Assembly (NCBI RefSeq): GCF_024713975.1
Contig: NC_091102.1
Span: 24,091,001 to 24,155,000 of the forward strand
Length of the DNA: 64,000 bases
Source: Paralichthys olivaceus
Lineage: Eukaryota > Chordata > Actinopteri > Pleuronectiformes > Paralichthyidae
Direction: 5' to 3'
This document shows positions 27,422 through 64,000 of the stretch, piece by piece. The stretch's first letter is position 1. The number at the start of each line of letters is the position of its first letter. Under the pieces are notes generated by a model. That model was not told where the DNA came from. It saw only the letters and a list, made by a program, of their open reading frames with translations, and did not search any database. The position numbers and the translations under genes are program-made.

Positions 27422-27662
27422 ATATCACTCCTATAAAAATGTTGGATTGGAAAAGCTCACTTTTCTGTGTTATGACCAGCAGAGGATGACTCCAACAGTA
27501 GTTTCTGTAGAAGTCTATGAGAAAATGATTCTCACTTGATTCATAATGTCAGTAAACATAAGGAGTTTTATGAGTTTATAAGGAGTTATCTCTAGTTTCA
27601 TGTCTTCTTAAATACAATATGATGTTCATTGTATAAAATTGCGGTCCATCTACAGTCAACTG

Positions 27663-27835
27663 TGGCCGTGAGAGCTCAATGTGCTACAAATGTAGAAAAC
27701 CATGCAAATAGAGAAAACACAATTCATCCATTTGACGACACATATGCTGCAAAAGGTCACAACACAAGCAAATACAGAAACTCTTAATTTGCAAGTGTTT
27801 TCTTGATTTGCAGTACGTTGAGCCCTCAACCGCCA
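27663..27835. mobile_element. MITE upstream of gene copy 1
   Basis: The ends TGGCCGTGAGAGCTCAATG and the reverse complement of the right end, TGGCGGTTGAGGGCTCAACG, form imperfect inverted repeats of about 38 bp that continue with CAAAT.AGAAAAC. It lies about 130 bp upstream of the TATA box. A clear target duplication was not found. The class (hAT-like) is a guess. Confidence 0.6.
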
Positions 27836-27967
27836 TACAAATACATCATAAAGCACTACATTAAAGGAATTTTTAGGGTTTATTGCTTTATTTATAGTTT
27901 AGTATAGTTTATTGTAGTTTAACTGCCTATTGATCAAAGCATCCTGTCCTGCCTTTGATCTTGACCC

Positions 27968-27975
27968 TATATATG
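27968..27975 (+). promoter_or_regulatory. TATA box of gene copy 1
   Basis: TATATATG lies 80 bp before the ATG and implies a transcription start near 28000 and a 5' leader of about 45 nt. The same position is TATATATA in copies 2 and 4. Confidence 0.65.
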
Positions 27976-28047
27976 TAGGCGGCAAGAAGCATCTGCATCA
28001 TATTTTCTGAAGGACCAACATAAAATATTCAACTTGAGACAGGAACC

Positions 28048-31000
28048 ATGTCAACTAGTACGAGATTAGATAGTGAACCACGTCCCTCTGAGCAGATCCA
28101 GAGGAAAGTCATCCCCTGGAAAGTGACAGCAGACTTGAAGCTGCACAAGGCTGAGAACCCCTGGGAGTCTTCAGTGAGGACAGGTGTTCACAGCTGCGCA
28201 AAGCCAGAGAACGATCCAGAGCACGTCAAGACCCAAGTGGTGTTCAAACTGTTCCGCGGCATCCTTAACAGAGTGACCCCCGAAAAGTTAGATATCCTGG
28301 TGAATCAGGTGACTGAACTCGACATCGACACCAAGGAGAGGCTGAGCGGAGTCGTAGAGCTCACCTTCGAAAAGGCCATCTCAGAGCCAAGTTTTTCAAG
28401 GGTCTATGCCAAAATGTGCCAAAGCCTCAAGATGGTAAGTATGGCCTTTTGAATTCTTTGAAATTAAGCCTGTGAATGTTTGTGTGTTGATATTTTAGCT
28501 TAGATAGTGACAAAAAGCCTTCAAGTGTGAGGAATTGGTTCAGAGAAGGAGCAAAATATGTGTCTGTGATCTACTAATAAGGACACAATCACTTTAATAT
28601 AATGATATGATAACCATGTCTGGTATATGTAACAGAAACGTGCTCCTGGATTGGTGTTTACCATTCAAGTCCTAGTTGACACATACCTCTACCAGGCTGA
28701 TGACATGAATTTAGTGCCATAGTTCTGGGCCAATGGTCAAAGTAATGGGATCGAGGAACTGAGAAGCCATTTGCACTACATAACCCGACCACACGTCCTC
28801 TCCTGTCCTGTTTTCTCTCTTTGCAGCTCACAGTCCACACCCCAGATGGACTGAAAGTCACTTTCAACAAGCTTCTGCTCCTACGTTGTCAAAAGGAGTT
28901 TGAGAAAGACAAAGATGACAATGAAATCCTGAAGAAGAAACAGGAGGAGCTGGAGGCTGCTTCAGGGGTACAGTAACGTATTAAGAACTACCAGTTGGGT
29001 TTTTCATTTATGCACAAAGGAAGTCATGGTGATTGAACTTGAGTGACTGATGGAGGGGATCCAAAGACAACCACATACTGTGAAAGCATTATGCAAAGAT
29101 GCTACAGAATCTTATCTATATTTGGAACTGTCATGTTAAACATCTGGGTTTTAGAGATATAAACTTAACTATCCCTCTGCTAAAGTTTCTTTTTCTTGAT
29201 CCATAATTTTTTCAACATCTTTCCCTGACAGGACCAGGAGAAGAAGCAGCTCACTGAAGAGTTAGAGGAGATTAAATACAAGGCCAAAAGGGAGTCTGTG
29301 AGTAACCTGAAGTTCCTCGGTGAGCTGTACAAACTTAAAATGCTCACAGATGGCATCGCGTGCGACTGCATTACCAAGCTGCTCAAGGACAATGATGAGG
29401 TGTCCCTGGAGTGCCTGTGCACCCTAGTGTCTGCCATCGGCAAGCAGCTAGAACTTGGGATAAGAAAGGTACAACACTCACAGTTACATATAGAGGAAGT
29501 GTGTGGTAGAGAGGAAATTAAGTTCACATGCATACTCATTACATGTATATTAGTTCTAATGAATGTGTAGCTGGATTAAGTTTTAATTTGTGCTTGTCTT
29601 CAGACTTGTTTGGACAAGTGTTTTGATCAGATGAAGCAGATTGTAACGGTGAAGAGTACCAGCAACAGGATCTGCTTCATGTTGCAGGATGTGCTTGAAC
29701 TTCGACTTGTAAGTTACAGAAGCAACACAAACCACAGATTTACACAAGGATATGCACTGGCAATCATGAGACAAATAAAGCAAAGTGCTTATGAATAGAA
29801 CCAATCAGATCACAATGATTGATGCAAGTCCATCAGTGCTGAGACCTGCTTTCAAAATTGTTATGCAAAGAAAATGAAAATGTCAGAACACATTCACTGA
29901 TCCACTGTGTGGACCACTATCAGCAAAATCTGACAAAGAATGTATTAGTTCAGCAGAATCAACAGAGCATTGCACCATATTACTTGGAAATATGATTCTA
30001 TGTCACATTGTGCTGATCATCCAACACTATCCTGTTTACTGAAGGATCAGTGGGTTTAATCATTTCTTACATTATTTGTCCTATCTTGTTCTCATTTATG
30101 TATTTTGTGTTCATGACTATAGGTATTATGTTGAATATGTTATCAGTCCCTTATTAATTAACATTTTATTTACATTTCACATAACTCATTTTCTTATTTC
30201 CGCTCTTCTAAGAAAGTATATATTTTCTGACGTCTAATATTCCTTGTTTGGGTCGATCTTGTCAAAAGTGGAACTGTTAGTAAAATATTTATCATTTATC
30301 ACCTGTGTCCTGCACTCTCCATCTCTCTCCCTTCCACCCATTACAGAACAAGTGGGTTCCCCGGCACAAGGACCAGGGCCCCAAGACCATTGGCGAGATC
30401 CGCAAAGAGGCTAATCTGGAGGGCCAGCGGTTCAACCAGCAGCCCCACCGACGAGAGCACCGATGGTTCAACCAGCAGCCTGACCGACGGGACAATCAAT
30501 GGTTCAACCAGCAGCCTGACCGACGGGACAATCAACGGTTCAACCAGCAGCCTGACCGACCGGACAATCAACGGTTCAACCAGCAGCCTGACCGACGGGA
30601 CAATCAACGGTTCAACCAGCAGCCTGACCGACGGGACAATCAACGGTTCAACCAGCAGCCTGACCGACGGGACAACAGAGAGTTCAATCAGCAGTCTGAT
30701 GGACGGGACAACCGACAGTTAAACCAGCAGTCCGACCGACAGAAAGGCCAGCAGTTCAACCAGCAGCCTGACAGACAAGTCGGTCGATGGTATCAGCACC
30801 ACAGCACCTTCAACTCCACCAAGCCCAGTTTGACGGAGGAACAGCTTGAAAAGAAGTCCAGCGCCATCATCAAGGAGTACCTGAACATCAATGACATGAA
30901 GGTACGCTGATGAGCAGTTGTTAGAAGAATGAAATGATACCTTTAGCACCACTTTCCTTGACAGTTCCTTACCTCATTTCCTGTGGCTGCTTCACAATAA

Positions 31001-33192
31001 AAGTCGCTGTGTAGTTTGCTGGGTGAACAGTTTTAATGTGAAGCGGTAGCAGCACTTTGACTTCTCGCAGTAATAGTTACAGTTATGACCGTTACACTGA
31101 AGTTTCTGTAAACATCATCATTTATCTCTGTCTGTGTTATGTCCCTCACTGTCCCAACAGGAGGCGCTGCAGTGTGTGCAAGAGTTGAAGAGCACTCAGC
31201 TGCTATTCCTTTTTGTGAGAAAAGGGCTGGAGTACACGCTGGACCGCAACGCCACCACCAGGGAGCGCATGGGCCTGCTGCTGCACCAGCTCATAAAGAG
31301 TGGCATCCTCCCACCTGAGCAGTACTGTAAAGGGTCAGTGTTGAGTTCCACAGAGGTTTCACAAAAACAAAACCAGCCAAATGCTAATTCAGTTGGAAAA
31401 TCTTCTTTTTGTCATCTTATTAAAAACCTTCAACTAGTTTTTTTTGTTTTTTTTTGTTAAATCTTCAAATACATATTGAGATGTGTGCTCTCTGTTTGTT
31501 CAGGCTTCAGGGAATCATCGAGGAAACTGAGGACCTGGCAATAGATATCCCCAAAATCTGGCTGTACCTGTCAGAGCTGCTCACTCCCATGCTCCTTGAA
31601 GGTGGGATCCCAATGGGAGTGCTTTTCAGGTAAGTAGCCAAAATAGAGAAGGAAAGTTTTTAATTTCTCATTCATTCACTGTTAATTTGTTCCTTGGTTT
31701 TGTCTCCAGGGAGATTTCAAAGCCTCTGATCCCTCTGGGAACAGCTGGAGTCCTGCTGGTTCACATCCTCAATGGACTGTGCAAAGCAATGGTGAGAACT
31801 GTCTCCATATGTGTCTCCTTATGTCCATTGTCTAGATTCTATGTAATATAATGATCAGTGGATGTGTTTATGAATCAGTCAGTAACTATGTGTATCTTCT
31901 CATCAGAGCCGTGAGAAGGCAGGTATAATGTGGAAGGAGGCCGGCCTCCGGTGGAAAGACTTCCTGCCCGAGGATGAAGACGTCCACAAGTTTGTGACAG
32001 AAAAGGTGAGAGGTCACTCTCTAGCTTCATCACCAACTGAAAGATGATCTGAAATTTCAACTATGCTTTTGAGATATTAACAGGTTTAGAAACTAGTACG
32101 AGTGAAAGTGGAATATTGGAGGAAACGTCAGTTCCTTTGAAACAAAAATAGAGAAGAAACTGAAGATGGGTCATGATTTAAACTCTGTGCCATCTTCTTT
32201 ATGGTCAACTCAAAGTTGACAGTTAGGTTTTGTTAAATATGGTGAATTACAAGTGGGGGGAGTGGAGGAACCAGGAGGTGCAAGACATGTTAAACATTAT
32301 GCCTCTGTCTATAGAATGTGGAGTTCACTCTGGGCAAGGAGACGAAGGAGAGTCAGAAGAAGAAGCTGAGCTCTGCAGAGCAGAAAAAGGAGCTGGACAC
32401 ACTGATTCAGGACGAGGCCGACAACCACACCATCGCTGATTGGATTGAGGTGTGTTCCTCCAGTTCAAATTCAATCTACAATCTGTTGTTGTTCTGGCTG
32501 AATGTTTCCTCTGCATGAGAGGACTGCAGCTGTTTTCTACATGTGCGTTAATAAACATGTTTGTGTGTAGAACAACCTGGATGAGCAGCAGACCTCCTCC
32601 AACACGTTCATCAGAACTCTGACGACCTGCATCTGCCAGTCAACAATCATCTGTAAGTCAAGTTCTTCACTTTCCTTATGAGAGAATATGGATAACAGAC
32701 TAAATATGATGAGGTGATGGTCCTGTCAGTGTTTAATGAAGCTTTCCTTTCTTTTACCTCAGCTGATGAAAACTACTACATTGTGGACCACGATCTGATG
32801 AGACAGCGAGCCACACTGCTGAAGAAATACCTGCATGATGAGGAGAAGCAGCTGCAGGCTCTCTCTGCCCTGCAGGTCCTGATGGTGCAGATGGATCACC
32901 CTAGCCGTGAGTCTCATTACTCATATATATATATTTTACTTTCAGACACCATGAATCTGTTTCTGTGCACAATGATTCTAATTTTTTGAAATATCTTGTT
33001 GTCCTCCCTTCATCAGAGCTGCTGCGGATGTTCTTTGACTGTCTTTATGACTTCGACGTGATCACGATCAGGACGTACTACAAGTGGGAGTTAAACAAGA
33101 ACCCCGGCGAGCAGCAAGGCAAAGATGTGGCCCTCCAGTCTGTTACTAACTTCTTCGCGTGGCTCCATGACTTGAAGGCTGCCAATCGCTGA
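28048..33192 (+). CDS. eIF4G-like translation initiation factor, copy 1 (13 exons, 813 aa)
   Basis: Exons: 28048-28434, 28827-28967, 29232-29468, 29604-29708, 30347-30901, 31161-31333, 31504-31629, 31710-31791, 31907-32005, 32315-32449, 32571-32652, 32763-32906, 33017-33192. All introns are GT-AG and phases agree, giving one frame of 813 codons. The start is in good context (GAACCATGT). Domains: MIF4G about residues 45-290 ([32 protein letters not shown]), then [16 protein letters not shown]; a 12-residue repeat block 317-436; MA3 about 447-560 ([20 protein letters not shown]); W2 about 640-810 ([27 protein letters not shown]). These are the eIF4A-binding and Mnk-type modules of eIF4G1/3. The N-terminal half with PABP site and eIF4E motif (YxxxxLL) is absent. 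Probable role: cytoplasmic initiation scaffold independent of eIF4E. It differs from copies 2-4 by EHV for EQV. Confidence 0.92.
30425..30784 (+). repeat. Coding minisatellite, 10 units of 36 bp (copy 1)
   Basis: Ten 36-bp units encode 12-residue repeats with consensus [12 protein letters not shown]. The outer units are diverged (PHRREH first; [10 protein letters not shown] and [10 protein letters not shown] last) and the inner ones nearly identical. It fills the linker between MIF4G and MA3. Confidence 0.95.
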
Positions 33193-33196
33193 AACT

Positions 33197-34002
33197 TAGG
33201 ACTGAACGATTAATAGAAATTTGATCACGATTTCGGCCTCTCACGCTCATAATCGAAGAAAAACGATTAATGTGCCGCCGCGCTGCCTGTATGCAAATTA
33301 CTGCGCTGTAAAGCAGAGTGAAGGCACCAGCTGCAGCAGTGAGTTTGTGGATCGATTGTGGAAAGAGCGATTGACAACATGGCAGAAAAGCAGCCCGAGC
33401 CTTTAGTTGAAAAGAAAAGTAGGGCAAGCTCGGTCATTTGGAGACATTTTGGCTTCAAATCGTTGGACGTAGAGCAGAAGGAGATTGTTTGCAAAGTTTG
33501 TTACACCGTCGTGTCTGCACCCCAGGGCAACACGACAAATATGTTTAACCATTTAAAGTTCAGCTATAAAGTGGTCTATGACAAAGTACTGACAGAGCAA
33601 AAGACCCAAAAAAGTGCAAGAGCGTCAACTTCAGCCACCGCAACACAGTCCTCCATTGAGGACACTCTTTCCAATGCCGCTCCATATCTCACCAGCTCCC
33701 GGCTGCAGCGAGAGATAACGGAGGCGGTGACGTTCATGCTAGCGAAGGACATGTGCCCCATCAGCACAGTTAGCAACCCAGGGTTCAAAACACTGGTGAA
33801 GACGATGGACAAGCGGTATGTGTTGCCATCCCGCAAACATTTCAGCAGAGTGGCACTGCCTGCTTTGTATGATAAATGTCGCGCTGAAGTTGAAAAAGAT
33901 ATCTCCACTGCCAATCAACAAATAATCGTGTTTATTAATCGTGATTTCAATAGGAATCAAAATAATCGGGATTATTGTTTTTCCCATAATCGTCCAGCCC
34001 TA
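33197..34002 (+). mobile_element. Internally deleted hAT element at the stop codon (copy 1)
   Basis: Ends are TAGGACTGAACGATTA and CATAATCGTCCAGCCCTA, imperfect inverted repeats, with an 8-bp duplication CTGAAACT at 33189-33196 and 34003-34010. An ORF from 33379 encodes a BED-type zinc-finger N-terminus (SVIWRHFGF, CKVCYTVVSAPQGNTTNMF, NHLKFSY) and runs into the right end; the second His of the finger is lost and the catalytic and dimerisation parts of the transposase are gone. The left duplication contains the TGA stop of the eIF4G-like gene, so the element now forms most of its 3' UTR. Confidence 0.93.
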
Positions 34003-34129
34003 CTGAAACTGACATCAAATTCTTATTTCCATCTTTTTCATCCATTCCTTCTCTTTTTTCCTGTGAACTGTCAGCAGAGGGTTCACTATCTATCTATCTA
34101 TTTTTTTTTTATGACAAATGGGAAATAAG

Positions 34130-34135
34130 AATAAA
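34130..34135 (+). terminator. Poly(A) signal of gene copy 1
   Basis: AATAAA lies about 120 bp beyond the hAT element; I see none on this strand inside it. The 3' UTR would be about 950 nt, of which about 810 come from the insertion. A short TATC microsatellite precedes it. Confidence 0.6.
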
Positions 34136-34192
34136 AGATGATGAACACATGCTGCAGGGCCTGAGTTAGTGTTTGCCTCTGATCCAGTTTCC

Positions 34193-34400
34193 TTTATTCA
34201 AGATTCAAGATTCAAAGATTTTATTATCAAATACACAGTGAACACACATTTCCCTATGAATTGAAATTCTTGTGCTGTCCTTTCTGGAATACCGACCAAA
34301 TTTACATAAGAATACAATATTTACATAAAATACAATAAGGCTATGAACATGTTGAAATTAGGCAGAAACAAGGCGAATGAGGTGAATAAGGTGAGGATTG
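34193..34400 (-). repeat. LINE-like 3' tail (unit 1)
   Basis: TTCAAGATTCAAGATTCAAAG then TTTTATTATCAAATACACAG and GAAATTCTTGTGCTGTCC is a common fish retroposon end, read in reverse. Class not determined. Confidence 0.5.
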
Positions 34401-34754
34401 TGCAAAACACTTCTCTCTGTCCCTCTGCCCCCCCCACATTCATTTATTTATTTTAATACATGTCAGTGACTATTTGTCCTCCCATAGTCTCTCTCTCTCT
34501 CTCTTTTTCTCTATCTCATTTCAGATATCTCTCACCCCGGAACTTCAGGACAACAACTTTTACCATTATTACTATTTTTAATTACAATATTTCAGTAATT
34601 AATTATTATATAAATTGTGCCTGTTATCACTAATAAATAATAGTCTTTACACTGTTGTTTACATTTTAACTAGTCAGATCTGATCACATCTATCACTCTC
34701 TCTTCTCTCCCCACTTTTCCATCCATCTCTCCTCTCCTTTTTCTTTGCTACCGG

Positions 34755-34866
34755 TCGAGGCAGATAAGCGCCCACACTGAGTCTGGTTCTAGAGGTTTCT
34801 CCCTGTTGATGAGGGAGTTTTTCCCTTCACAGTCTCAGAGTGCTGCTCATTGTTGAACTGTTGGTT
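34755..34866 (+). repeat. Common fish interspersed repeat (unit 1)
   Basis: GGCAGATAAGCGCCCACACT then CTGGTTCTAGAGGTTTCTCC and GGGAGTTTTTCCCTTCACAG is a frequent fish repeat of undetermined class. Confidence 0.6.
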
Positions 34867-34925
34867 TCTCTATTTAACCATGTCAGGATGTAGATGTTTT
34901 AATAGTTGGCCAGACTTAAAGGTGG

Positions 34926-35377
34926 TGTTACAGTTTTGTTGTGGCTGGACCCGGAAGCAGACACAGAGAGGAACAGTTTGTGAAATGAGTTTTTTTTTTA
35001 ATGAAAAGCTTGTGGCAGGCAGGCAACAGGCTGAAGGCTGGCTGAGGGTGAGCAGGAGCGAGGGCATGCGGGTTGAGCTCTGGCGATCCTGAGGCATGGG
35101 AAAAAAACAAAGTGAGTCACATGTACAAAAAACAAGCGAGGAGGTTCTTTTTCTAAGAAACACTACGAGTGAAGCTGAGAGTGTGAACCACAGGAGTGAC
35201 TGTAACAACCTGGCAAGGAGTGGAGGAGAGACCTGGGTATTTGTAGTGCTGGTGATGAGGATGATTGAAGCCAGGTGTAGAACTCATGCCAGGAGTAGAG
35301 ACCACACCCACGCACACCCGAGGAGGAAAAGGAGGAGGGACATAGAAAACACCATGGAAACGGCACAAGCCATGACA
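34926..35377 (-). mobile_element. Solo LTR (452 bp), duplication GGTGG (unit 1)
   Basis: TGTTACAG...CCATGACA is flanked by GGTGG at 34921-34925 and 35378-35382. On the minus strand it has a TACAAATACCCAGG box and an ATTAAA tail region, so it lies in minus orientation. Confidence 0.85.
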
Positions 35378-35382
35378 GGTGG

Positions 35383-37393
35383 AGTGAAAAGTCATCAGTT
35401 GTGGAGAGGAAGGGATGTGAGGAATAATGATGTATGGTTTTATGTAGTATCTCCAGGAAGACATTCAATGTGTTACACTTAGTTATTTATACAAAAAGTA
35501 TAACAACAAGTTGTATGACATTCAAAAAAGGGAGTGCTAGAAGGAGAACGTTGCCTGGATCCTTTCTCACCATCTCATAGCTGGCTACTGGAGGTCATGC
35601 CTGTTGGAATTAGTTTAAATCCCACTTCAGTGTGCCTGAGGAACATTTTTGTGAAACTCTCTGCATCATTTTGTGTAGAGAGTACAGAGGCATTTGTGTT
35701 TTATAGAACTACCTGCAACATATATCCACTAAGAGCTCCTCTCTGAGTAGCATTCGTTAATAGGAGGGAAATGTTAATTTTCAAAGCTCGACTCCCACAT
35801 GAAAAGGGATGATTTATTCTCTTTGCCTGCTCAGCCCGACAGATACTGGGAGGGGACAGTATCTGCGAGGCTTCAAGGAAGAGAGATTCCTTTTGTGACT
35901 TTATCATAGATTTACCGAAATGTGTGATGCCATGCTCCGGAGGTAGCACATTTGTTCTGTTTGCTTTATCTGTATTTCAGATGTGGCATCTTTGTTCTAT
36001 AGAGGAAGGGCAGGTGGATTGATCTGCCAAGAGGGAGAAAAGAGGGAATGCAAAGTCCCTCAGCTGTTAGAGAAACAGATCCTAGATGTGGGAAGGTTGA
36101 AGAGGAATGGGAATTTCTTTGATACAAATGCTCGTACGTATTTTAGGACCTGGCACACATAATACTACAGTGGGTACACATTCAGACACACAGGAAGTTA
36201 GCATGCTTTGGATACAGGATTTTACATCTTGGCCGGAGTATAGTACATTTTGGAATTCCATTTAAGTAACTGAATACCACCAATACATGCTGAAAACTTT
36301 AAGAAATCAATATTTGAAATCACCTTTTACACACAAGTATGAGTCCATCCTTACAAATTGGTTTATGATCTCTAAAGGATAACGTTATTCATTCTAAACA
36401 TGTGTAGACATGTAGTGGAACCTATGATTTCTTGCATTAAACTGAAAACGAAGTTTTAGTGAAATTTCTGAGAGAGCTGCTAAAATGTAGCTTTGAGCTG
36501 CTAAAAAATGTTGATACACACATCTGAATCATCCTCAGTTAATACTACGTGTTTAAAGCTACAGTGCTACGGACTTCAGTGTTTCCCCTCTGATTTGTTT
36601 TAGCAACGGGGACCAACCCCTCCAACTTATGAATAAACAAATACATAAACAAATAAATAGATAAATAATAAAATAAATCGTAATGTAATTATTTTGACAC
36701 TCTTCATACCAATGCACCAAGGCTTGTGTGCTGAAACACTCAGTAAGGTGGCCTTGCTTCCAGTGCAACCAGGCTCATTAATGAGAGATTTAGCTCCTCT
36801 GCTCTTTTCTAATCACTCACACGTACAATATGTATGCTCCTGGATAAACGGGGCGTCAGATCTTCTGCAACAACAAAGTTAAACACTGTTTTATGTCATA
36901 ATCTGCAGGAGGAATTTTTTTGGTGTGTGTGCGTGTCTGCCTGTCTGTTGCTCTTCACACAAACAAAAGTTATTTAGTTATTAATTGATGTTGAAGTGCA
37001 TGCATGCAAAATGGTGGACTATCAAATTGTATAAATACTTCTCATAAACTCTGGAGCGAATCAAACAAACACAAAGTAGGGTTCACTACTGTTCAGATCC
37101 TAATTACATCTAATTAGTGTTTATTGTAAATGTGTAAAGTGAGCACAGGTCAGTGGGGGAGTGAGGAGGGAGGACATGCAGCACTGTGCAAGGATACAGG
37201 ATTCATAAGGTGCATCTGCTCTGATCCTGAAGCAGCAGCTGCAAGAATTTTGAGTGGAGGGGGTACCCTTGACTTGCTATGTAAGTAGGATCTCAGAACC
37301 TAAAGTGCAGACACATGACAAAGGCAGATAATATAAACGTGAGCTACAATGGCACTCAGTAAAGTGCATACCTGCCAAGGCCCATCAGTCCCC
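35383..37393. other. Unassigned spacer of unit 1
   Basis: No gene, RNA or recognised repeat is seen. The sequence is nearly identical in units 2 and 3, but the small ORFs carry no domain that I recognise. Confidence 0.5.
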
Positions 37394-37397
37394 TTAA

Positions 37398-38142: not shown

Positions 38143-38315
38143 TGGCCGTGAGAGCTCAATGTGCTACAAATGTAGAAAACCATGCAAATAGAGAAAACAC
38201 AATTCATCCATTTGACGACACATATGCTGCAAAAGGTCACAACACAAGCAAATACAGAAACTCTTAATTTGCAAGTGTTTTCTTGATTAGCAGTACGTTG
38301 AGCCCTCAACCGCCA
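38143..38315. mobile_element. MITE upstream of gene copy 2
   Basis: Same element and position as 27663-27835. Confidence 0.6.
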
Positions 38316-38455: not shown

Positions 38456-38527
38456 TAGGCGGCAAGAAGCATCTGCATCATATTTTCTGAAGGACCAACA
38501 TAAAATATTCAACTTGAGACAGGAACC

Positions 38528-51900: not shown

Positions 51901-54037
51901 ACTTTGACTTCTCGCAGTAATAGTTACAGTTATGACCGTTACACTGAAGTTTCTGTAAACATCATCATTTATCTCTGTCTGTGTTATGTCCCTCACTGTC
52001 CCAACAGGAGGCGCTGCAGTGTGTGCAAGAGTTGAAGAGCACTCAGCTGCTATTCCTTTTTGTGAGAAAAGGGCTGGAGTACACGCTGGACCGCAACGCC
52101 ACCACCAGGGAGCGCATGGGCCTGCTGCTGCACCAGCTCATAAAGAGTGGCATCCTCCCACCTGAGCAGTACTGTAAAGGGTCAGTGTTGAGTTCCACAG
52201 AGGTTTCACAAAAACAAAACCAGCCAAATGCTAATTCAGTTGGAAAATCTTCTTTTCGTCATCTTATTAAAAAAATTCAACTAGTTTTTTTTGTTTTGTT
52301 TTGTTAAATCTTCAAATACATATTGAGATGTGTGCTCTCTGTTTGTTCAGGCTTCAGGGAATCATCGAGGAAACTGAGGACCTGGCAATAGATATCCCCA
52401 AAATCTGGCTGTACCTGTCAGAGCTGCTCACTCCCATGCTCCTTGAAGGTGGGATCCCAATGGGAGTGCTTTTCAGGTAAGTAGCCAAAATAGAGAAGGA
52501 AAGTTTTTAATTTCTCATTCATTCACTGTTAATTTGTTCCTTGGTTTTGTCTCCAGGGAGATTTCAAAGCCTCTGATCCCTCTGGGAACAGCTGGAGTCC
52601 TGCTGGTTCACATCCTCAACGGACTGTGCAAAGCAATGGTGAGAACTGTCTCCATATGTGTCTCCTTATGTCCATTGTCTAGATTCTATGTAATATAATG
52701 ATCAGTGGATGTGTTTATGAATCAGTCAGTAACTATGTGTATCTTCTCATCAGAGCCGTGAGAAGGCAGGTATAATGTGGAAGGAGGCCGGCCTCCGGTG
52801 GAAAGACTTCCTGCCCGAGGATGAAGACGTCCACAAGTTTGTGACAGAAAAGGTGAGAGGTCACTCTCTAGCTTCATCACCAACTGAAAGATGATCTGAA
52901 ATTTCAACTATGCTTTTGAGATATTAACAGGTTTAGAAACTAGTACGAGTGAAAGTGGAATATTGGAGGAAACGTCAGTTCCTTTGAAACAAAAATAGAG
53001 AAGAAACTGAAGATGGGTCATGATTTAAACTCTGTGCCATCTTCTTTATGGTCAACTCAAAGTTGACAGTTAGGTTTTGTTAAATATGGTGAATTACAAG
53101 TGGGGGGAGTGGAGGAACCAGGAGGTGCAAGACATGTTAAACATTATGCCTCTGTCTATAGAATGTGGAGTTCACTCTGGGCAAGGAGACGAAGGAGAGT
53201 CAGAAGAAGAAGCTGAGCTCTGCAGAGCAGAAAAAGGAGCTGGACACACTGATTCAGGACGAGGCCGACAACCACACCATCGCTGATTGGATTGAGGTTT
53301 GTTCCTCCAGTTCAAATTCAATCTACAATCTGTTGTTGTTCTGGCTGAATGTTTCCTCTGCATGAGAGGACTGCAGCTGTTTTCTACATGTGCGTTAATA
53401 AACATGTTTGTGTGTAGAACAACCTGGATGAGCAGCAGACCTCCTCCAACACGTTCATCAGAACTCTGACGACCTGCATCTGCCAGTCAACAATCATCTG
53501 TAAGTCAAGTTCTTCACTTTCCTTATGAGAGAATATGGATAACAGACTAAATATGATGAGGTGATGGTCCTGTCAGTGTTTAATGAAGCTTTCCTTTCTT
53601 TTACCTCAGCTGATGAAAACTACTACATTGTGGACCACGATCTGATGAGACAGCGAGCCACACTGCTGAAGAAATACCTGCATGATGAGGAGAAGCAGCT
53701 GCAGGCTCTCTCTGCCCTGCAGGTCCTGATGGTGCAGATGGATCACCCTAGCCGTGAGTCTCATTACTCATATATATATTTTACTTTCAGACACCATGAA
53801 TCTGTTTCTGTGCACAATGATTCTAATTGTTTGAAATATCTTGTCGTCCTCCCTCCATCAGAGCTGCTGCGGATGTTCTTTGACTGTCTTTATGACTTCG
53901 ACGTGATCACGATCAGGACGTACTACAAGTGGGAGTTAAACAAGAACCCCGGCGAGCAGCAAGGCAAAGACGTGGCCCTCCAGTCTGTTACTAACTTCTT
54001 CGCGTGGCTCCATGACTTGAAGGCTGCCAATCGCTGA
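48927..54037 (+). CDS. eIF4G-like translation initiation factor, copy 3 (13 exons, 801 aa)
   Basis: Exons: 48927-49313, 49706-49846, 50111-50347, 50483-50587, 51226-51744, 52008-52180, 52351-52476, 52557-52638, 52754-52852, 53162-53296, 53418-53499, 53610-53753, 53862-54037. The frame is intact. Exon 2 keeps the DDNE form of copy 1. Exon 4 has TRLDEC where the others have TCLDKC. The repeat block has nine units. MIF4G, MA3 and W2 modules are all present and the N-terminal eIF4E/PABP-binding half is absent, as in the other copies. Confidence 0.92.
51304..51627 (+). repeat. Coding minisatellite, 9 units of 36 bp (copy 3)
   Basis: Nine 12-residue repeats; first unit PHRRDN as in copy 2, eighth unit with DRQRG as in copy 4. 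Confidence 0.95.
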
Positions 54038-54041
54038 AACT

Positions 54042-54853
54042 TAGGACTGAACGATTAATAGAAATTTGATCACGATTTCGGCCTCTCACGCTCATAATCG
54101 AAGAAAAACGATTAATGTGCCGCCGCGCTGCCTGTATGCAAATTACTGCGCTGTAAAGCAGAGTGAAGGCACCAGCTGCAGCAGTGAGTTTGTGGATCGA
54201 TTGTGGAAAGAGCGATTGACAACATGGCAGAAAAGCAGCCCGAGCCTTTAGTTGAAAAGAAAAGTAGGGCAAGCTCGGTCATTTGGAGACATTTTGGCTT
54301 CAAATCGTTGGATGTAGAGCAGAAGGAGATTGTTTGCAAAGTTTGTTACGCCGTCGTGTCTGCACCCCAGGGCAACACGACAAATATGTTTAACCATTTA
54401 AAGTTCAGCTATAAAGTGGTCTATGACAAAGTACTGACAGAGCAAAAGACCCAAAAAAGTGCAAGAGCTTCAACTTCAGCCACCGCCACCGCAACACAGT
54501 CCTCCATTGAGGACACTCTTTCCAATGCCGCTCCATATCTCACCGGCTCCCGGCTACAGCGAGAGATAACGGAGGCGGTGACGTTCATGCTAGCGAAGGA
54601 CATGTGCCCCATCAGCACAGTTTGCAACCCAGGGTTCAAAACACTGGTGAAGACGATGGACAAGCGGTATGTGTTGCCATCCCGCAAACACTTCAGCAGA
54701 GTGGCACTGCCTGCTTTGTATGATAAATGTCGCGCTGAAGTTGAAAAAGATATCTCCACTGCCAATCAACAAATAATCGTGTTTATTAATCGTGATTTCA
54801 ATAGGAATCAAAATAATCGGGATTATTGTTTTTCCCATAATCGTCCAGCCCTA
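54042..54853 (+). mobile_element. hAT element at the stop codon (copy 3)
   Basis: Same insertion, duplication CTGAAACT at 54034-54041 and 54854-54861; BED-type ORF from 54224. Confidence 0.93.
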
Positions 54854-54988
54854 CTGAAACTGACATCAAATTCTTATTTCCATCTTTTTCATCCATTCCT
54901 TCTCTTTTTTCCTGTGAACTGTCAGCAGAGGGTTCACTATCTATCTATCTATCTATCTATTTTTTTTTTATGACAAATGGGAAATAAG

Positions 54989-54994
54989 AATAAA
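54989..54994 (+). terminator. Poly(A) signal of gene copy 3
   Basis: AATAAA in the same place as in copies 1 and 2. Confidence 0.6.
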
Positions 54995-55043
54995 AGATGA
55001 TGAACACATGCCTGAGTTAGTGTTTGCCTCTGATCCAGTTTCC

Positions 55044-55245
55044 TTTATTCAAGATTCAAGATTCAAAGATTTTATTGTCAAATACACAGAGAACACACGT
55101 TTCCCTATGAATTGAAATTCTTGTGCTGTCCTTTCTGGAATACCGACCAAATTTACATAAAAATTCAATAAGGCTATGAACATGTTAAAAATAAGGCAGA
55201 AACAAGGCGAATGAGGTGAATAAGGTGAGGATTGTGCAAAACACT
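55044..55245 (-). repeat. LINE-like 3' tail (unit 3)
   Basis: Same repeat as 34193-34400, with a small internal deletion around 55160. Confidence 0.5.
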
Positions 55246-55593
55246 TCTCTCTGTCCCTCTGCCCCCCCACATTCATTTATTTATTTTAATACATGTCAAT
55301 GACTATTTCACTTTGTCCTCCCATAGTCTCTCTCTCTCTCTCTTTTTCTCTATCTCATTTCAGATATCTCTCACCCCGGAACTTCAGGACAACAACTTTT
55401 ACCATTATTACTATTTTTAATTACAATATTTCAGTAATTAATTATTATATAAATTGTGCCTGTTATCACTAATAAATAATAGTCTTTACACTGTTGTTTA
55501 CATTTTAACTAGTCAGATCTGATCACATCTATCACTCTCTCTTCTCTCCCCACTTTTCCATCCATCTCTCCTCTCCTTTTTCTTTGCTACCGG

Positions 55594-55705
55594 TCGAGGC
55601 AGATAAGCGCCCACACTGAGTCTGGTTCTAGAGGTTTCTCCCTGTTGATGAGGGAGTTTTTCCCTTCACAGTCTCAGAGTGCTGCTCATTGTTGAACTGT
55701 TGGTT
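55594..55705 (+). repeat. Common fish interspersed repeat (unit 3)
   Basis: Same repeat as 34755-34866. Confidence 0.6.
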
Positions 55706-55764
55706 TCTCTATTTAACCATGTCAGGATGTAGATGTTTTAATAGTTGGCCAGACTTAAAGGTGG

Positions 55765-56220
55765 TGTTACGGTTTTGTTGTGGCTGGACCCGGAAGCAGA
55801 CACAGAGAGGAACAGTTTGTGAAATGAGTTTTTTTTTTTTTTAATGAAAAGCTTGTGGCAGGCAGGCAACAGGCTGAAGGCTGGCTGAGGGTGAGCAGGA
55901 GCGAGGGCATGCGGGTTGAGCTCTGGCGATCCTGAGGCATGGGAAAAAAACAAAGTGAGTCACATGTACAAAAAACAAGCGAGGAGGTTCTTTTTCTAAG
56001 AAACACTACGAGTGAAGCTGAGAGTGTGAACCACAGGAGTGACTGTAACAACCTGGCAAGGAGTGGAGGAGAGACCTGGGTATTTGTAGCGCTGGTGATG
56101 AGGATGATTGAAGCCAGGTGTAGAACTCATGCCAGGAGTAGAGACCACACCCACGCACACCCGAGGAGGAAAAGGAGGAGGGACATGGAAAACACCACGG
56201 AAACGGCACAAGCCATGACA
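55765..56220 (-). mobile_element. Solo LTR, duplication GGTGG (unit 3)
   Basis: TGTTACGG...CCATGACA with GGTGG at 55760-55764 and 56221-56225. Confidence 0.85.
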
Positions 56221-56225
56221 GGTGG

Positions 56226-58217
56226 AGTGAAAAGTCATCAGTTGTGGAGAGGAAGGGATGTGAGGAATAATGATGTTTTATGTAGTATCTCCAGGAAGAC
56301 ATTCAATGTGTTACACTTAGTTATTTATACAAAAAGTATAACAACAAGTTGTATGACATTCAAAAAAGGGAGTGCTAGAAGGAGAACGTTGCCTGGATCC
56401 TTTCTCACCATCTCATAGCTGGCTACTGGAGGTCATGCCTGTTGGAATTAGTTTAAATCCCACTTCAGTGTGCCTGAGGAACATTTTTGTGAAACTCTCT
56501 GCATCATTTTGTGTAAAGAGTACAGAGGCATTTGTGTTTTATAGAACTACCTGCAACATATATCCACTAAGAGCTCCTCTCTGAGTAGCATTCGTTAATA
56601 GGAGGGAAATGTTAATTTTCAAAGCTCGACTCCCACATGAAAAGGGATGATTTATTCTCTTTGCCTGCTCAGCCCGACAGTTACTGGGAGGGGACAGTAT
56701 CTGCGAGTCTTCAAGGAAGAGAGATTCCTTTTGTGACTTTATCATAGATTTACCGAAATGTGTGATGCCATGCTCCGGAGGTAGCACATTTGTTCTGTTT
56801 GCTTTATCTGTATTTCAGATGTGGCATCTTTGTTCTATAGAGGAAGGGCAGGTGGATTGATCTGCCAAGAGGGAGAAAAGAGGGAATGCAAAGTCCCTCA
56901 GCTGTTAGAGAAACAGATCCTAGATGTGGGAAGGTTGTAGAGGAATGGGAATTTCTTTGATACAAATGCTCGTACGCATTTTAGGACCTGGCACACATAA
57001 TACTACAGTGGGTACACATTCAGACACACAGGAAGTTAGCATGCTTTGGATACAGGATTTTACATCTTGGCCGGAGTATAGTACATTTTGGAATTCCATT
57101 TAAGTAACTGAATACCACCAATACATGCTGAAAACTTTAAGAAATCAATATTTGAAATCACTTTTTACACACAAGTATGAGTCCATCCTTACAAATTGGT
57201 TTATGATCTCTAAAGGATAACGTTATTCATTCTAAACACGTGTAGACATGTAGTGGAACCTATGATTTCTCGCATTAAACTGAAAACGAAGTTTTAGTGA
57301 AATTTCTGAGAGAGCTGCTAAAATGTAGCTTTGAGCTGCTAAAAAATGTTGATGCACACATCTGAATCATCCTCAGTTAATACTACGTGTTTAAAGCTAC
57401 AGTGCTACGAACTTCAGTGTTTCCCCTCTGATTTTTTTTAGCAACGGGGACCAACCCCTCCAACTTATGAATAAACAAATACATAAACAAATAAATTGAT
57501 AAATAATAAAATAAATCGTAATGTAATTATTTTGACACTCTACATATCAATGCACCAAGGCTTGTGTGCTGAAACACTCAGTAAGGTGGCCTTGCTTCCA
57601 GTGCAACCAGGCTCATTAATGAGAGATTTAGCTCCTCTGCTCTTTTCTAATCACTCACACGTATAATATGTATGCTCCTGGATAAACAGGGCGTCAGATC
57701 TTCTGCAACAACAAAGTTAAACACTGTTTTATGTCATAATCTGCAGGAGGAATTTTTTTGGTGTGTGTGCGTGTCTGCCTGTCTGTCGCTCTTCACACAC
57801 ACAAAAGTTATTTAGTTCTTAATTGATGTTGAAGTGCATGCATGCAAAATGGTGGACTATCAAATTGTATAAATACTTCTCATAAACTCTGGAGCGAATC
57901 AAACAAACACAAAGTAGGGTTCACTACTGTTCAGATCCTAATTACATCTAATTAGTGTTTATTGTAAATGTGTAAAGTGAGCACAGGTCAGTGGGGGAGT
58001 GAGGAGGGAGGACATGCAGCACTGTGCAAGGATACAGGATTCATAAGGTGCGTCTGCTCTGATCCTGAAGCAGCAGCTGCAAGAATTTTGAGTGGAGGGG
58101 AAACCCTTGACTTGCTATGTAAGTAGGATCTCAGAACCTAAAGTGCAGACACATGACAAAGGCAGATAATATAAACGTGAGCTACAATGGCACTCAGTAA
58201 AGTGCATATCAGTCCCC
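56226..58217. other. Unassigned spacer of unit 3
   Basis: Nearly identical to 35383-37393; no supported gene. Confidence 0.5.
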
Positions 58218-58221
58218 TTAA

Positions 58222-58587
58222 AGGTTCAGTGTGTACGATTTAGGTGAAAGGGATTTTTGGCAGAAATTGAATGTGAAATAATCCTTGTGATGTTTTCACT
58301 AGTGTGTTTCATCTAAATTGTATGAATTGTTGTTTTCTTTACCAGAGAATGAGCTCTTTATATTTAAATACTTTATATTTACATGGAGGGGGGTCCTCTC
58401 TGTGGAGGCAGCCGTGTTTTTTACTGTCGTCCAAACTGGACAAACTAAAACCTTTTGAGTTTTCATGACAACTGAAGTTCACCACAGGTTCTCTCTCATG
58501 TTTGGAAGGAGAGGGTGAGGTGAGGAGTATTCAGCTGCAACATGAAACTTCACCACCAGATGTCACAAAATTCTACACACTGAACCT
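58222..58587. mobile_element. TTAA-flanked MITE (unit 3)
   Basis: Same element as 37398-37763, TTAA at 58218-58221 and 58588-58591. Confidence 0.85.
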
Positions 58588-58966
58588 TTAAATGCAACCC
58601 ATGTAGATTTCAATTTTAATGAATGATCACAAGCTTACAACAGCGTCTCAACTGATTCTACAAAAACACAATATTCCATTCTTTCTTTTTTTGCAGTGTT
58701 CCCTATAAACATGAAATCAGGGCTTTATATCACTCCTATAAAAATGTTGGATTGGAAAAGCTCACTTTTCTGTGTTATGACCAGCAGAGGATGACTCCAA
58801 CAGTAGTTTCTGTAGAAGTCTATGAGAAAATGATTCTCACTTGATTCATAATGTCAGTAAACATAAGGAGTTTATGAGTTTATAAGGAGTTATCTCTAGT
58901 TTCATGTCTTCTTAAATACAATATGATGTTCATTGTATAAAATTGCGGTCCATCTACAGTCAACTG

Positions 58967-59139
58967 TGGCCGTGAGAGCTCAATGTGCTACAAATGTAGA
59001 AAACCATGCAAATAGAGAAAACACAATTCATCCATTTGACGACAAATATGCTGCAAAAGGTCACAACACAAGCAAATACAGAAACTCTTAATTTGCAAGT
59101 GTTTTCTTGATTAGCAGTACGTTGAGCCCTCAACCGCCA
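58967..59139. mobile_element. MITE upstream of gene copy 4
   Basis: Same element and position as 27663-27835. Confidence 0.6.
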
Positions 59140-59271
59140 TACAAATACATCATAAAGCACTACATTAAAGGAATTTTTAGGGTTTATTGCTTTATTTATA
59201 GTTTAGTATAGTTTATTGTAGTTTAACTGCCTATTGATCAAAGCATCCTGTCCTGCCTTTGATCTTGACCC

Positions 59272-59279
59272 TATATATA
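59272..59279 (+). promoter_or_regulatory. TATA box of gene copy 4
   Basis: TATATATA as in copy 2, 80 bp before the ATG. Confidence 0.65.
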
Positions 59280-59351
59280 TAGGCGGCAAGAAGCATCTGC
59301 ATCATATTTTCTGAAGGACCAACATAAAATATTCAACTTGAGACAGGAACC

Positions 59352-62300
59352 ATGTCAACTAGTACGAGATTAGATAGTGAACCACGTCCCTCTGAGCAGA
59401 TCCAGAGGAAAGTCATCCCCTGGAAAGTGACAGCAGACTTGAAGCTGCACAAGGCTGAGAACCCCTGGGAGTCTTCAGTGAGGACAGGTGTTCACAGCTG
59501 CGCAAAGCCAGAGAACGATCCAGAGCAGGTCAAGACCCAAGTGGTGTTCAAACTGTTCCGCGGCATCCTTAACAGAGTGACCCCCGAAAAGTTAGATATC
59601 CTGGTGAATCAGGTGACTGAACTCGACATCGACACCAAGGAGAGGCTGAGCGGAGTCGTAGAGCTCACCTTCGAAAAGGCCATCTCAGAGCCAAGTTTTT
59701 CAAGGGTCTATGCCAAAATGTGCCAAAGCCTCAAGATGGTAAGTATGGCCTTTTGAATTCTTTGAAATTAAGCCTGTGAATGTTTGTGTGTTGATATTTT
59801 AGCTTAGATAGTGACAAAAAGCCTTCAAGTGTGAGGAATTGGTTCAGAGAAGGAGCACAATATGTGTCTGTGATCTACTAATAAGGACACAATCACTTTA
59901 ATATAATGATATGATAACCATGTCTGGTATATGTAACAGAAACGTGCTCCTGGATTGGTGTTTACCATTCAAGTCCTAGTTTACACATACCTCTACCAGG
60001 CTGATGACATGAATTTAGTGCCATAGTTCTGGGCCAATGGTCAAAGTAATGGGATCGAGGAACTGAGAAGCCATTTGCACTACATAACCCGACCACACGT
60101 CCTCTCCTGTCCTGTTTTCTCTCTTTGCAGCTCACAGTCCACACCCCAGATGGACTGAAAGTCACTTTCAACAAGCTTCTGCTCCTACGTTGTCAAAAGG
60201 AGTTTGAGAAAGACAAAGATGAAATCCTGAAGAAGAAACAGGAGGAGCTGGAGGCTGCTTCAGGGGTACAGTAACGTATTAAGAACTACCAGTTGGGTTT
60301 TTCATTTATGCACAAAGGAAGTCATGGTGATTGAACTTGAGTGACTGATGGAGGGGATCCAAAGACAACCACATACTGTGAAAGCATTATGCAAAGATGC
60401 TACAGAATCTTATCTATATTTGGAACTGTCATGTTAAACATCTGGGTTTTAGAGATATAAACTTAACTATCCCTCCGCTAAAGTTTCTTTTTCTTGATCC
60501 ATAATATTTTCAACATCTTTCCCTGACAGGACCAGGAGAAGAAGCAGCTCACTGAAGAGTTAGAGGAGATTAAATACAAGGCCAAAAGGGAGTCTGTGAG
60601 TAACCTGAAGTTCCTCGGTGAGCTGTACAAACTTAAAATGCTCACAGATGGCATCGCGTGCGACTGCATTACCAAGCTGCTCAAGGACAATGATGAGGTG
60701 TCCCTGGAGTGCCTGTGCACCCTAGTGTCTGCCATCGGCAAGCAGCTAGAACTTGGGATAAGAAAGGTACAACACTCACAGTTACATATAGAGGAAGTGT
60801 GTGGTAGAGAGGAAATTAAGTTCACATGCATACTCATTACATGTATATTAGTTCTAATGAATGTGTAGCTGGATTAAGTTTTAATTTGTGCTTGTCTTCA
60901 GACTTGTTTGGACAAGTGTTTTGATCAGATGAAGCAGATTGTAACGGTGAAGAGTACCAGCAACAGGATCTGCTTCATGTTGCAGGATGTGCTTGAACTT
61001 CGACTTGTAAGTTACAGAAGCAACACAAACCACAGATTTACACAAGGATATGCACTGGCAATCATGAGACAAATAAAGCAAAGTGCTTATGAATAGAACC
61101 AATCAGATCACAATGATTGATGCAAGTCCATCAGTGCTGAGACCTGCTTTCAAAATTGTTATGCAAAGAAAATGAAAATGTCAGAACACATTCACTGATC
61201 CACTGTGTGGACCACTATCAGCAAAATCTGACAAAGAATGTATTAGTTCAGCAGAATCAACAGAGCATTGCACCATATTACTTGGAAATATGATTCTATG
61301 TCACATTGTGCTGATCATCCAACACTATCCTGTTTACTGAAGGATCAGTGGGTTTAATCATTTCTTACATTATTTGTCCTATCTTGTTCTCATTTATGTA
61401 TTTTGTGTTCATGACTATAGGTATTATGTTGAATATGTTATCAGTCCCTTATTAATTAACATTTTATTTACATTTCACATAACTCATTTTCTTATTTCCG
61501 CTCTTCTAAGAAAGTATATATTTTCTGACGTCTAATATTCCTTGTTTGGGTCGATCTTGTCAAAAGTGGAACTGTTAGTAAAATATTTATCATTTATCAC
61601 CTGTGTCCTGCACTCTCCATCTCTCTCCCTTCCACCCATTACAGAACAAGTGGGTTCCCCGGCACAAGGACCAGGGCCCCAAGACCATTGGCGAGATCCG
61701 CAAAGAGGCTAATCTGGAGGGCCAGCGGTTCAACCAGCAGCCCCACCGACGAGAGCACCGATGGTTCAACCAGCAGCCTGACCGACGGGACAATCAACGG
61801 TTCAACCAGCAGCCTGACCGACGGGACAATCAACGGTTCAACCAGCAGCCTGACCGACCGGACAATCAACGGTTCAACCAGCAGCCTGACCGACGGGACA
61901 ATCAACGGTTCAACCAGCAGCCTGACCGACGGGACAATCAACGGTTCAACCAGCAGCCTGACCGACGGGACAACAGAGAGTTCAATCAGCAGTCTGATGG
62001 ACGGGACAACCGACAGTTAAACCAGCAGTCCGACCGACAGAGAGGCCAGCAGTTCAACCAGCAGCCTGACAGACAAGTCGGTCGATGGTATCAGCACCAC
62101 AGCACCTTCAACTCCACCAAGCCCAGTTTGACGGAGGAACAGCTTGAAAAGAAGTCCAGCGCCATCATCAAGGAGTACCTGAACATCAATGACATGAAGG
62201 TACGCTGATGAGCAGTTGTTAGAAGAATGAAATGATACCTTTAGCACCACTTTCCTTGACAGTTCCTTACCTCATTTCCTGTGGCTGCTTCACAATAAAA

Positions 62301-64000
62301 GTCGCTGTGTAGTTTGCTGGGTGAACAGTTTTAATGTGAAGCGGTAGCAGCACTTTGACTTCTCGCAGTAATAGTTACAGTTATGACCGTTACACTGAAG
62401 TTTCTGTAAACATCATCATTTATCTCTGTCTGTGTTATGTCCCTCACTGTCCCAACAGGAGGCGCTGCAGTGTGTGCAAGAGTTGAAGAGCACTCAGCTG
62501 CTATTCCTTTTTGTGAGAAAAGGGCTGGAGTACACGCTGGACCGCAACGCCACCACCAGGGAGCGCATGGGCCTGCTGCTGCACCAGCTCATAAAGAGTG
62601 GCATCCTCCCACCTGAGCAGTACTGTAAAGGGTCAGTGTTGAGTTCCACAGAGGTTTCACAAAAACAAAACCAGCCAAATGCTAATTCAGTTGGAAAATC
62701 TTCTTTTTGTCATCTTATTAAAAACCTTCAACTAGTTTTTTTTGTTTTGTTTTGTTAAATCTTCAAATACATATTGAGATGTGTGCTCTCTGTTTGTTCA
62801 GGCTTCAGGGAATCATCGAGGAAACTGAGGACCTGGCAATAGATATCCCCAAAATCTGGCTGTACCTGTCAGAGCTGCTCACTCCCATGCTCCTTGAAGG
62901 TGGGATCCCAATGGGAGTGCTTTTCAGGTAAGTAGCCAAAATAGAGAAGGAAAGTTTTTAATTTCTCATTCATTCACTGTTAATTTGTTCCTTGGTTTTG
63001 TCTCCAGGGAGATTTCAAAGCCTCTGATCCCTCTGGGAACAGCTGGAGTCCTGCTGGTTCACATCCTCAATGGACTGTGCAAAGCAATGGTGAGAACTGT
63101 CTCCATATGTGTCTCCTTATGTCCATTGTCTAGATTCTATGTAATATAATGATCAGTGGATGTGTTTATGAATCAGTCAGTAACTATGTGTATCTTCTCA
63201 TCAGAGCCGTGAGAAGGCAGGTATAATGTGGAAGGAGGCCGGCCTCCGGTGGAAAGACTTCCTGCCCGAGGATGAAGACGTCCACAAGTTTGTGACAGAA
63301 AAGGTGAGAGGTCACTCTCTAGCTTCATCACCAACTGAAAGATGATCTGAAATTTCAACTATGCTTTTGAGATATTAACAGGTTTAGAAACTAGTACGAG
63401 TGAAAGTGGAATATTGGAGGAAACGTCAGTTCCTTTGAAACAAAAATAGAGAAGAAACTGAAGATGGGTCATGATTTAAACTCTGTGCCATCTTCTTTAT
63501 GGTCAACTCAAAGTTGACAGTTAGGTTTTGTTAAATATGGTGAATTACAAGTGGGGGGAGTGGAGGAACCAGGAGGTGCAAGACATGTTAAACATTATGC
63601 CTCTGTCTATAGAATGTGGAGTTCACTCTGGACAAGGAGACGAAGGAGAGTCAGAAGAAGAAGCTGAGCTCTGCAGAGCAGAAAAAGGAGCTGGACACAC
63701 TGATTCAGGACAAGGCCGACAACCACACCATCGCTGATTGGATTGAGGTTTGTTCCTCCAGTTCAAATTCAATCTACAATCTGTTGTTGTTCTGGCTGAA
63801 TGTTTCCTCTGCATGAGAGGACTGCAGCTGTTTTCTACATGTTTGTTAATAAACATGTTTGTGTGTAGAACAACCTGGATGAGCAGCAGACCTCCTCCAA
63901 CACGTTCATCAGAACTCTGACGACCTGCATCTGCCAGTCAACAATCATCTGTAAGTCAAGTTCTTCACTTTCCTTATGAGAGAATATGGATAACAGACTA
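59352..64000 (+). CDS. eIF4G-like translation initiation factor, copy 4 (exons 1-11, partial)
   Basis: Exons: 59352-59738, 60131-60265, 60530-60766, 60902-61006, 61645-62199, 62459-62631, 62802-62927, 63008-63089, 63205-63303, 63613-63747, 63869-63950. Exons 12 and 13, with the end of the W2 domain, lie beyond the window. The visible frame is intact. Exon 2 has the 6-bp deletion of copy 2, but exon 5 has ten repeats with the PDRPDN unit and PHRREH start of copy 1, so this copy is a mosaic. Exon 10 has TLDKET where the others have TLGKET. Confidence 0.9.
61723..62082 (+). repeat. Coding minisatellite, 10 units of 36 bp (copy 4)
   Basis: Ten 12-residue repeats, closest to copy 1 (shares PHRREH and PDRPDN) but with QRF instead of QWF in the third unit and DRQRG in the ninth. 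Confidence 0.95.

Follow-up and report, generated by a model that had tools for sequence, protein, structure and literature searches.

Why should a gene for eIF4G1, a core and strongly constrained translation factor, stand repeated head to tail in a fish genome? This question is raised by a stretch of 64,000 nucleotides from the flounder Paralichthys olivaceus (C10:24091001-24155000, hereafter the window), in which an original prediction had placed a tandem array of eIF4G-like genes. Judged from its sequence, the repeated gene is not a full eIF4G gene, but an N-terminally truncated paralogue of eIF4G1. It is present in 16 near-identical copies in the assembly, each with an open frame, and its N-terminus and MIF4G domain have diverged from those of a paralogue on contig C12 faster than the introns of the same gene.

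The head-to-tail units were found by a BLAST search of the window against itself and, together with the unit alignments, this search placed their starts at exactly the predicted bases. Unit a1 (27422..37902, 10,481 bp) adjoins the left flank and is followed by a2 (37903..48301, 10,399 bp), a3 (48302..58726, 10,425 bp) and a4 (58727..64000), which is cut by the window end and runs on to C10:24160158. All four lie on the + strand. In aligned bases, with gaps left out, unit 1 differs from unit 2 at 79 of 10,369 positions, from unit 3 at 61 of 10,396 and from unit 4 at 16 of 5,274. The array continues past the window, as had been expected. A fifth unit, a5, follows a4 and spans unit positions 1-8000, still with a complete gene, and this first array (C10a) thus comprises four full units plus unit positions 1-8000, ending at C10:24168114; further copies are found elsewhere in the genome.

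As predicted, every unit carries a spliced eIF4G-like gene in open frame, its 13 exons separated by GT-AG introns. In a1, the gene (28048..33192) consists of exons at 28048-28434, 28827-28967, 29232-29468, 29604-29708, 30347-30901, 31161-31333, 31504-31629, 31710-31791, 31907-32005, 32315-32449, 32571-32652, 32763-32906 and 33017-33192, with a TGA stop codon at 33190-33192, and encodes 813 amino acids. The genes of a2 (38528..43597) and a3 (48927..54037) encode 787 and 801 amino acids, respectively, and that of a4 (59352..64000) has exons 1-11 in the window and is complete in the genome with 811 amino acids; all are on the + strand. The flounder genes already bear RefSeq names, and the a1 protein agrees in length and start with the RefSeq-named P. 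olivaceus protein P0001, which is encoded on C17 (813 amino acids, in a cluster of 15). The a1 protein contains a MIF4G (E 5.8e-39), an MA3 (1.3e-27) and a W2 domain (2.3e-9), in that order and above the Pfam cut-offs. A 36-bp tandem repeat in exon 5 (30428..30776, + strand) codes for a 12-residue repeat that stands where the canonical linker would be, and its length varies between copies by whole 36-bp units. In an AlphaFold2 model of the array protein the HEAT domains are folded and the linker (residues 322-450) is of low confidence, the model as a whole having a mean predicted local distance difference test (pLDDT) score of 67.8 and a predicted template-modelling (pTM) score of 0.40; the best PDB matches of this model are the C-terminal portion of eIF4GI and eIF4G HEAT1 with eIF4A.

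What is missing from the gene is equally informative. The eIF4E-binding motif YxxxxL-phi is absent from P0001 and from P0002, the 731-amino-acid P. olivaceus protein encoded on C12, and is present at position 498 of P0006, the 1408-amino-acid eIF4G1 of Sphaeramia. The alignment of P0006 to the unit does not begin before residue 580 of P0006. In a tblastn search with P0006 (E 0.01) of the unit and the 27-kb left flank, which short diverged exons could escape, nothing matched before that residue, and hence neither the N-terminal poly(A)-binding protein (PABP)-binding region nor an exon with the eIF4E motif was found; no eIF4G exons were found by tblastn in the left flank. A canonical eif4g1 resides on C11. 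The view that a core translation-initiation scaffold has been amplified was therefore overstated, and the amplified gene is better described as a truncated, fast-evolving paralogue.

A TATA-like sequence (27970..27977, + strand) lies 78 bp before the ATG, and a TATA-like match occurs at this place in all nine C10 units scanned, which is weakly suggestive of a regulated promoter. At the other end of the gene there is a hAT-like insertion with a BED-finger open reading frame (33189..34010), bounded by 8-bp direct repeats of CTGAAACT at 33189-33196 and 34003-34010; repeats of this kind are characteristic of hAT elements. The stop codon of the truncated eif4g1-like gene sits in the left repeat, and in the array copies the transposon is now located directly behind it. 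In each of the 16 copies the unit alignment spans this insertion, which is missing from the C12 paralogue.

How many copies are there? The genome (588 Mb, 25 contigs) was searched, and all counts obtained in this way are lower bounds. A 401-base probe from intron 4 and exon 5 gave 22 matches, and exon 1 as protein gave 33, 16 of which were 98-100% identical. The 16 near-identical copies are distributed over C10a (five genes; C10:24118422-24168114), C10b (four genes; C10:24202466-24241716, beginning 84 kb further on), C4 (three), C17 (three) and C2 (one). Each of the 16 has 13 exons with every splice site in place and an open frame 787-813 residues long, and no two of the encoded proteins are the same. 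Pairwise, the array units (n = 15) differ by 0.06-0.97%.

The C10a, C10b and C4 arrays all open with unit position 1 and break off after position 8000, beyond which the same flank (Y) follows. The upstream flank (X; 1..27421 of the window) is common to these three arrays, and the 9.5 kb of it that adjoin the array also occur on C17. Probes gave the order Y-X-array-Y-X-array-Y-partial X on C10 and Y-X-array-Y-partial X on C4. It could be argued that repeated copies are false duplicates created by the assembly. This view is supported by the flanks, since X differs over 7.7 kb by only 0.05% between C10a and C10b and 0.08% between C10 and C4, and Y differs over 7 kb by 0-0.04% among the three, values at or below ordinary heterozygosity. 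Moreover, some units pair by position across arrays (a4 with b2 at 0.06%, a5 with b3 at 0.08%, b4 with c3 at 0.06%), and the probes C10:24060001 and C10:24300001 match C4 at 100% (rounded) and 144 kb apart, the stretch between them having been compared only at probes and fetched parts. However, flank X of C17 differs from that of C10a by 0.59%, and the C17 array ends at unit position 10479 in downstream sequence that is not common to C10 or C4. On C2, unit sequence is joined to this downstream sequence of C17, which is a different junction, and the units within C10a are 0.39-0.76% apart with three kinds of repeat length. For these reasons at least nine copies stand, and nine is the safe count where 16 are assembled. 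The worry about an artefact is thereby answered for C10a, C17 and C2 but not for C10b and C4, whose seven copies may represent either a very recent duplication or haplotypes assembled apart; as an account of the repeated copies in general, we consider an artefact improbable. The separate downstream end of C17, and the C2 junction with C17 sequence, suggest that C17 is the older site. Concerted evolution between C17 and C10 need not be invoked, as their flanks (0.59%) and units (mostly 0.4-0.8%) differ about equally.

That the unit occurs on four different chromosomes, with 97-100% identity, might also indicate that it is a mobile element, such as a transposon, a Helitron or a re-integrated circle, that carries the gene. 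Yet the sites have common flanking sequence, which implies that blocks rather than units have moved, and on this ground the idea that the dispersed unit is a transposon or Helitron was rejected. In addition, C10a, C10b and C4 all stop at the same internal position beside the same sequence, and neither inverted or otherwise defined ends nor a target-site duplication were seen at the unit borders when these were read by eye. A mobile unit is therefore highly improbable.

The ancestry of the gene is indicated by its introns. In the 4 kb of the canonical C11 eif4g1 that was read, which is 82-91% identical to P0006 in most exons and contains the stretch holding the eIF4E motif, exon borders are common to the array gene. 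Introns at shared positions make the array gene a partial DNA-level copy of eif4g1, and they rule out a retrocopy. In a protein tree of 54 rows, built by a quick method and carrying a long-branch warning, the eif4g1 clade of 24 rows that holds the array gene has a Shimodaira-Hasegawa-like approximate likelihood ratio test (SH-aLRT) support of 99, in keeping with descent from eif4g1, and the array and C12 genes form one long stem inside the teleost eif4g1 clade. The placement of Synchiropus as sister of the flounder genes was flagged as a long-branch join and was not used. No close relative of the flounder pair P0001 and P0002 in another species was found among the best 120 protein matches. Within the flounder, the C12 paralogue has an open frame and a proline-rich linker, and relatives on C1, C15 and C3 are incomplete or broken. 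The C3 paralogue (C3:6698001-6708000) is older and has its own expanded 12-residue repeat, QQYDRRDDQRVN; its middle exons were not matched by tblastn, and its last exon has a stop.

The searches also revealed other eIF4G relatives on C16 and at C2:5711020, plus a match at C1:29914111. C18 has a tandem set at 7155485, 7161176 and 7166660, spaced by 5.5-5.7 kb, with stop-to-stop frames of 808-810 amino acids that are 29% identical to exon 1; a 268-amino-acid piece read from C18 contains a MIF4G fragment, and matches akin to this set occur at C18:6870531 and C24:11783725. Tandem eIF4G-like exon matches, about 3.3-3.4 kb apart and 32-36% identical, are located at C13:21817970-21824868 (three) and C17:20638343-20641976 (two).

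Are the copies under selection? The following divergence and frame tests treat sites as independent. Compared with C12, the array gene differs at 184 of 2,045 positions in exons outside the repeat and at 167 of 2,665 in introns. There is an exon excess in exons 1-4 plus the start of exon 5 (112/938, or 11.9%, against 90/1432, or 6.3%, in introns; p = 2.6e-6), and it persists without CpG sites (81/860 against 79/1398; p = 9e-4). Exon 1 differs at 54 of 387 positions and intron 1 at 16 of 391, and intron divergence is 6.3% in each half of the gene. Nonsynonymous divergence (pN) reaches 0.123 in MIF4G, against 0.063 in introns (p = 1.7e-6), and 0.157 in the N-terminus (p = 3e-4); MA3 does not differ from introns (p = 0.16). 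Among canonically conserved sites in the N-terminus and MIF4G, 25 are altered only in the array and 14 only in C12, while the corresponding numbers for MA3 are 1 and 14. We contrasted exons with introns in 15 pairs of six sequences, the five pairs with C1 being set aside, as exon 1 of C1 aligns only in part. In 8 of the remaining 10 pairs, in which the rows of array copies a1 and d3 are not independent, exons exceeded introns at p<0.05. The exceptions were a1-d3, where the difference was reversed (p = 0.22), and C12-C3, and the C12-C15 excess lost significance without CpG sites (p = 0.055). Since C12 and C3 show no exon excess, the excess points to the array side. Among the 16 copies themselves there is no clear difference between exons and introns (32/2084 against 62/2705; p = 0.07). 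The exon excess against C12 suggests that MIF4G has been under positive selection.

The reading frame has been largely protected. Indels among the 16 copies are multiples of three in 4 of 4 coding cases and in 2 of 15 non-coding cases, and frame-changing indels number 0 in 2,408 coding against 13 in 4,391 non-coding bases (one-sided p = 0.003). Between the array and C12 there is one in 2,045 exon bases against 10 in 2,665 intron bases (p = 0.018 one-sided, 0.029 two-sided). The original prediction took the intact frames as a sign either of use or of very recent origin, and each of these holds in part: the close similarity of the 15 array units speaks for recent origin, and the way in which coding but mostly not non-coding indels keep the frame speaks for use.

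The sequences show a separate and amplified family of truncated paralogues. We propose, with about an even chance of being right, that it serves as a side scaffold or competitor that binds eIF4A independently of the cap and is subject to changing selection. A DNA copy of eif4g1 that kept its introns was left without the gene's 5' half, acquired its own ATG and became a separate family in the flounder. Its amplification occurred at two levels, by 10.4-kb head-to-tail units and by larger array-carrying blocks between chromosomes, although part of the latter may be haplotypes. The product keeps MIF4G, MA3 and W2, lacks the eIF4E motif and carries the repeat instead of the canonical linker, the N-terminus and MIF4G changing faster than introns with the frame kept almost throughout. 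If the proteins are made, they would bind eIF4A via MIF4G and MA3 in the absence of cap or poly(A) factors, serving either as a scaffold that needs no cap or, which may be the likelier option, as a competitor sequestering eIF4A or some other ligand of MIF4G. The latter is favoured because the part of human eIF4G1 that binds eIF3 falls in the replaced linker. The MIF4G surface is probably under positive selection, possibly from a pathogen factor or a germline conflict, and the copy number may reflect a dosage effect or merely follow from the instability of the duplicated region.

Several observations weigh against this proposal. Between the array and C12, W2 is constrained (pN 0.062, synonymous divergence 0.151; p = 0.005), the ratio of nonsynonymous to synonymous substitution rates (dN/dS) is 0.89-0.93 overall by three methods, and its value of 1.5-2.1 in MIF4G is not a significant excess (p = 0.2). 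None of five partitions was significant in McDonald-Kreitman tests, and the variable codons among the copies (21 nonsynonymous to 9 synonymous) are near neutral (p = 0.27). The C12-C3 pair gave no exon excess at all (106/932 against 151/1444; p = 0.5), and one of the six array-C12 exon indels, which lies at 33174 within the last codons and measures 4 bp, does change the frame, so that the protein ends differ. Furthermore, gene conversion with a diverged paralogue, if confined to exons, could be another source of exon divergence. Lastly, 74 of 202 conserved canonical MIF4G-region columns are changed in the array protein, and 103 across the whole family. Because of these changes binding of eIF4A cannot be assumed, although the fold is kept in the model.

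The copies may instead be passengers, i.e. a decaying or newly released eIF4G1 fragment without function that evolves under relaxed constraint and owes its amplification only to its place in an unstable chromosome region that was duplicated repeatedly. The low divergence of the 15 array units, the near-neutral ratio among copies, the broken relatives on C1, C15 and C3, and neighbourhood probes that match many places in the genome all fit this explanation. Evidence against it comes from the intact frame of all 16 copies, from the open frame of the older C12 copy, from both frame contrasts and from the constraint on W2, while drift alone cannot make exons outpace introns. Passenger copies are thus a possible but somewhat unlikely explanation.

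Comparison with known proteins helps to place the family. The array protein resembles canonical eIF4G1 (human 6zmw, 8oz0 and 1ug3; flounder C11) in the order of MIF4G, MA3 and W2 (best match E 3e-221) and, as far as the C11 gene was read, in its exon borders; it differs in having neither the N-terminal half nor a YDREFLL-type eIF4E motif, in its 12-residue repeat linker, in its faster change and in its multi-copy gene. DAP5/eIF4G2 (p97) likewise has three HEAT domains but lacks an eIF4E motif, and the array protein would, as DAP5 does, act without cap binding. However, DAP5 is conserved, not known to be arrayed and of a different lineage, and with much weaker matches (4iul E 5e-32, 3l6a E 3e-17) the array protein is closer to eIF4G1 than to eIF4G2. 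PDCD4, an eIF4A inhibitor with two MA3 domains and no MIF4G, matches over MA3 only (best E 1.9e-7) and may have competition for eIF4A in common with the array protein, but the latter has one MA3, one MIF4G and W2 and does not belong with PDCD4. To our knowledge, Drosophila eIF4G2 has not been described as an array. It is reported to be an additional eIF4G paralogue that is specialised for spermatogenesis (PMC4388691). That role was tested, whereas any role of the array gene is a predicted one.

A search of other fish for the same array had been recommended. At the protein level it yielded separate truncated eIF4G1 sets in the clingfish Gouania willdenowi and in notothenioids. In Gouania, the truncated eIF4G1-like P0097 belongs to a 27-member cluster, and there are further short clusters of 3 and 2, the members of which may include isoforms. 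In the sequences read, these proteins and those of notothenioids (P0023, P0062, P0107) are like the flounder proteins in being shortened and lacking the eIF4E-motif stretch. The Gouania set also appears to be multi-copy and the notothenioid one has a long stem, but both keep the canonical NTVPIS-like linker motif. Neither set groups with the flounder genes in the tree: that of Gouania falls within the eif4g1a clade, and the truncated proteins of notothenioids occupy a different eif4g1 branch. A literature search of titles and abstract starts found no paper describing eIF4G expansion in fish.

A broader idea is that teleosts repeatedly reduce eIF4G1 to its cap-independent half and amplify it, the flounder MIF4G surface being driven by a virus factor dependent on eIF4G or by a germline conflict and the proteins serving as decoys or competitors; this we regard as unlikely and put forward tentatively. 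One candidate factor was norovirus VPg, the binding of which is hurt most by change of H918 in HEAT-1 of human eIF4GI (PMC4703368). All five flounder family members examined have another residue in place of H918. Nonetheless, only three of six named surface residues are changed (897, 914 and 918; not 912, 919 and 939), which is no more than the family background of 103/202 and therefore lends no support to a VPg target.

With regard to the neighbourhood, the duplicated flank X includes an LTR (long terminal repeat) retrotransposon on the minus strand (1-7857 of the window) with 280-bp direct repeats that are 98.6% alike and frames for reverse transcriptase, RNase H, integrase and a PNMA-like gag. 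At about 8000-12000, a strong GC skew (0.31-0.35), unlike that of the rest of the window, lies over open frames that by eye resemble long interspersed elements; the one frame scanned there had no Pfam match.

Altogether, the array gene has the look of a new side branch of the translation machinery that is evolving quickly, and not of extra copies of a core factor. If this is true, core domains that no longer depend on cap binding, have been multiplied and have outpaced introns in their change would constitute a natural experiment, which would reveal the MIF4G surfaces that are under outside pressure and the abilities of an eIF4E-free eIF4G.

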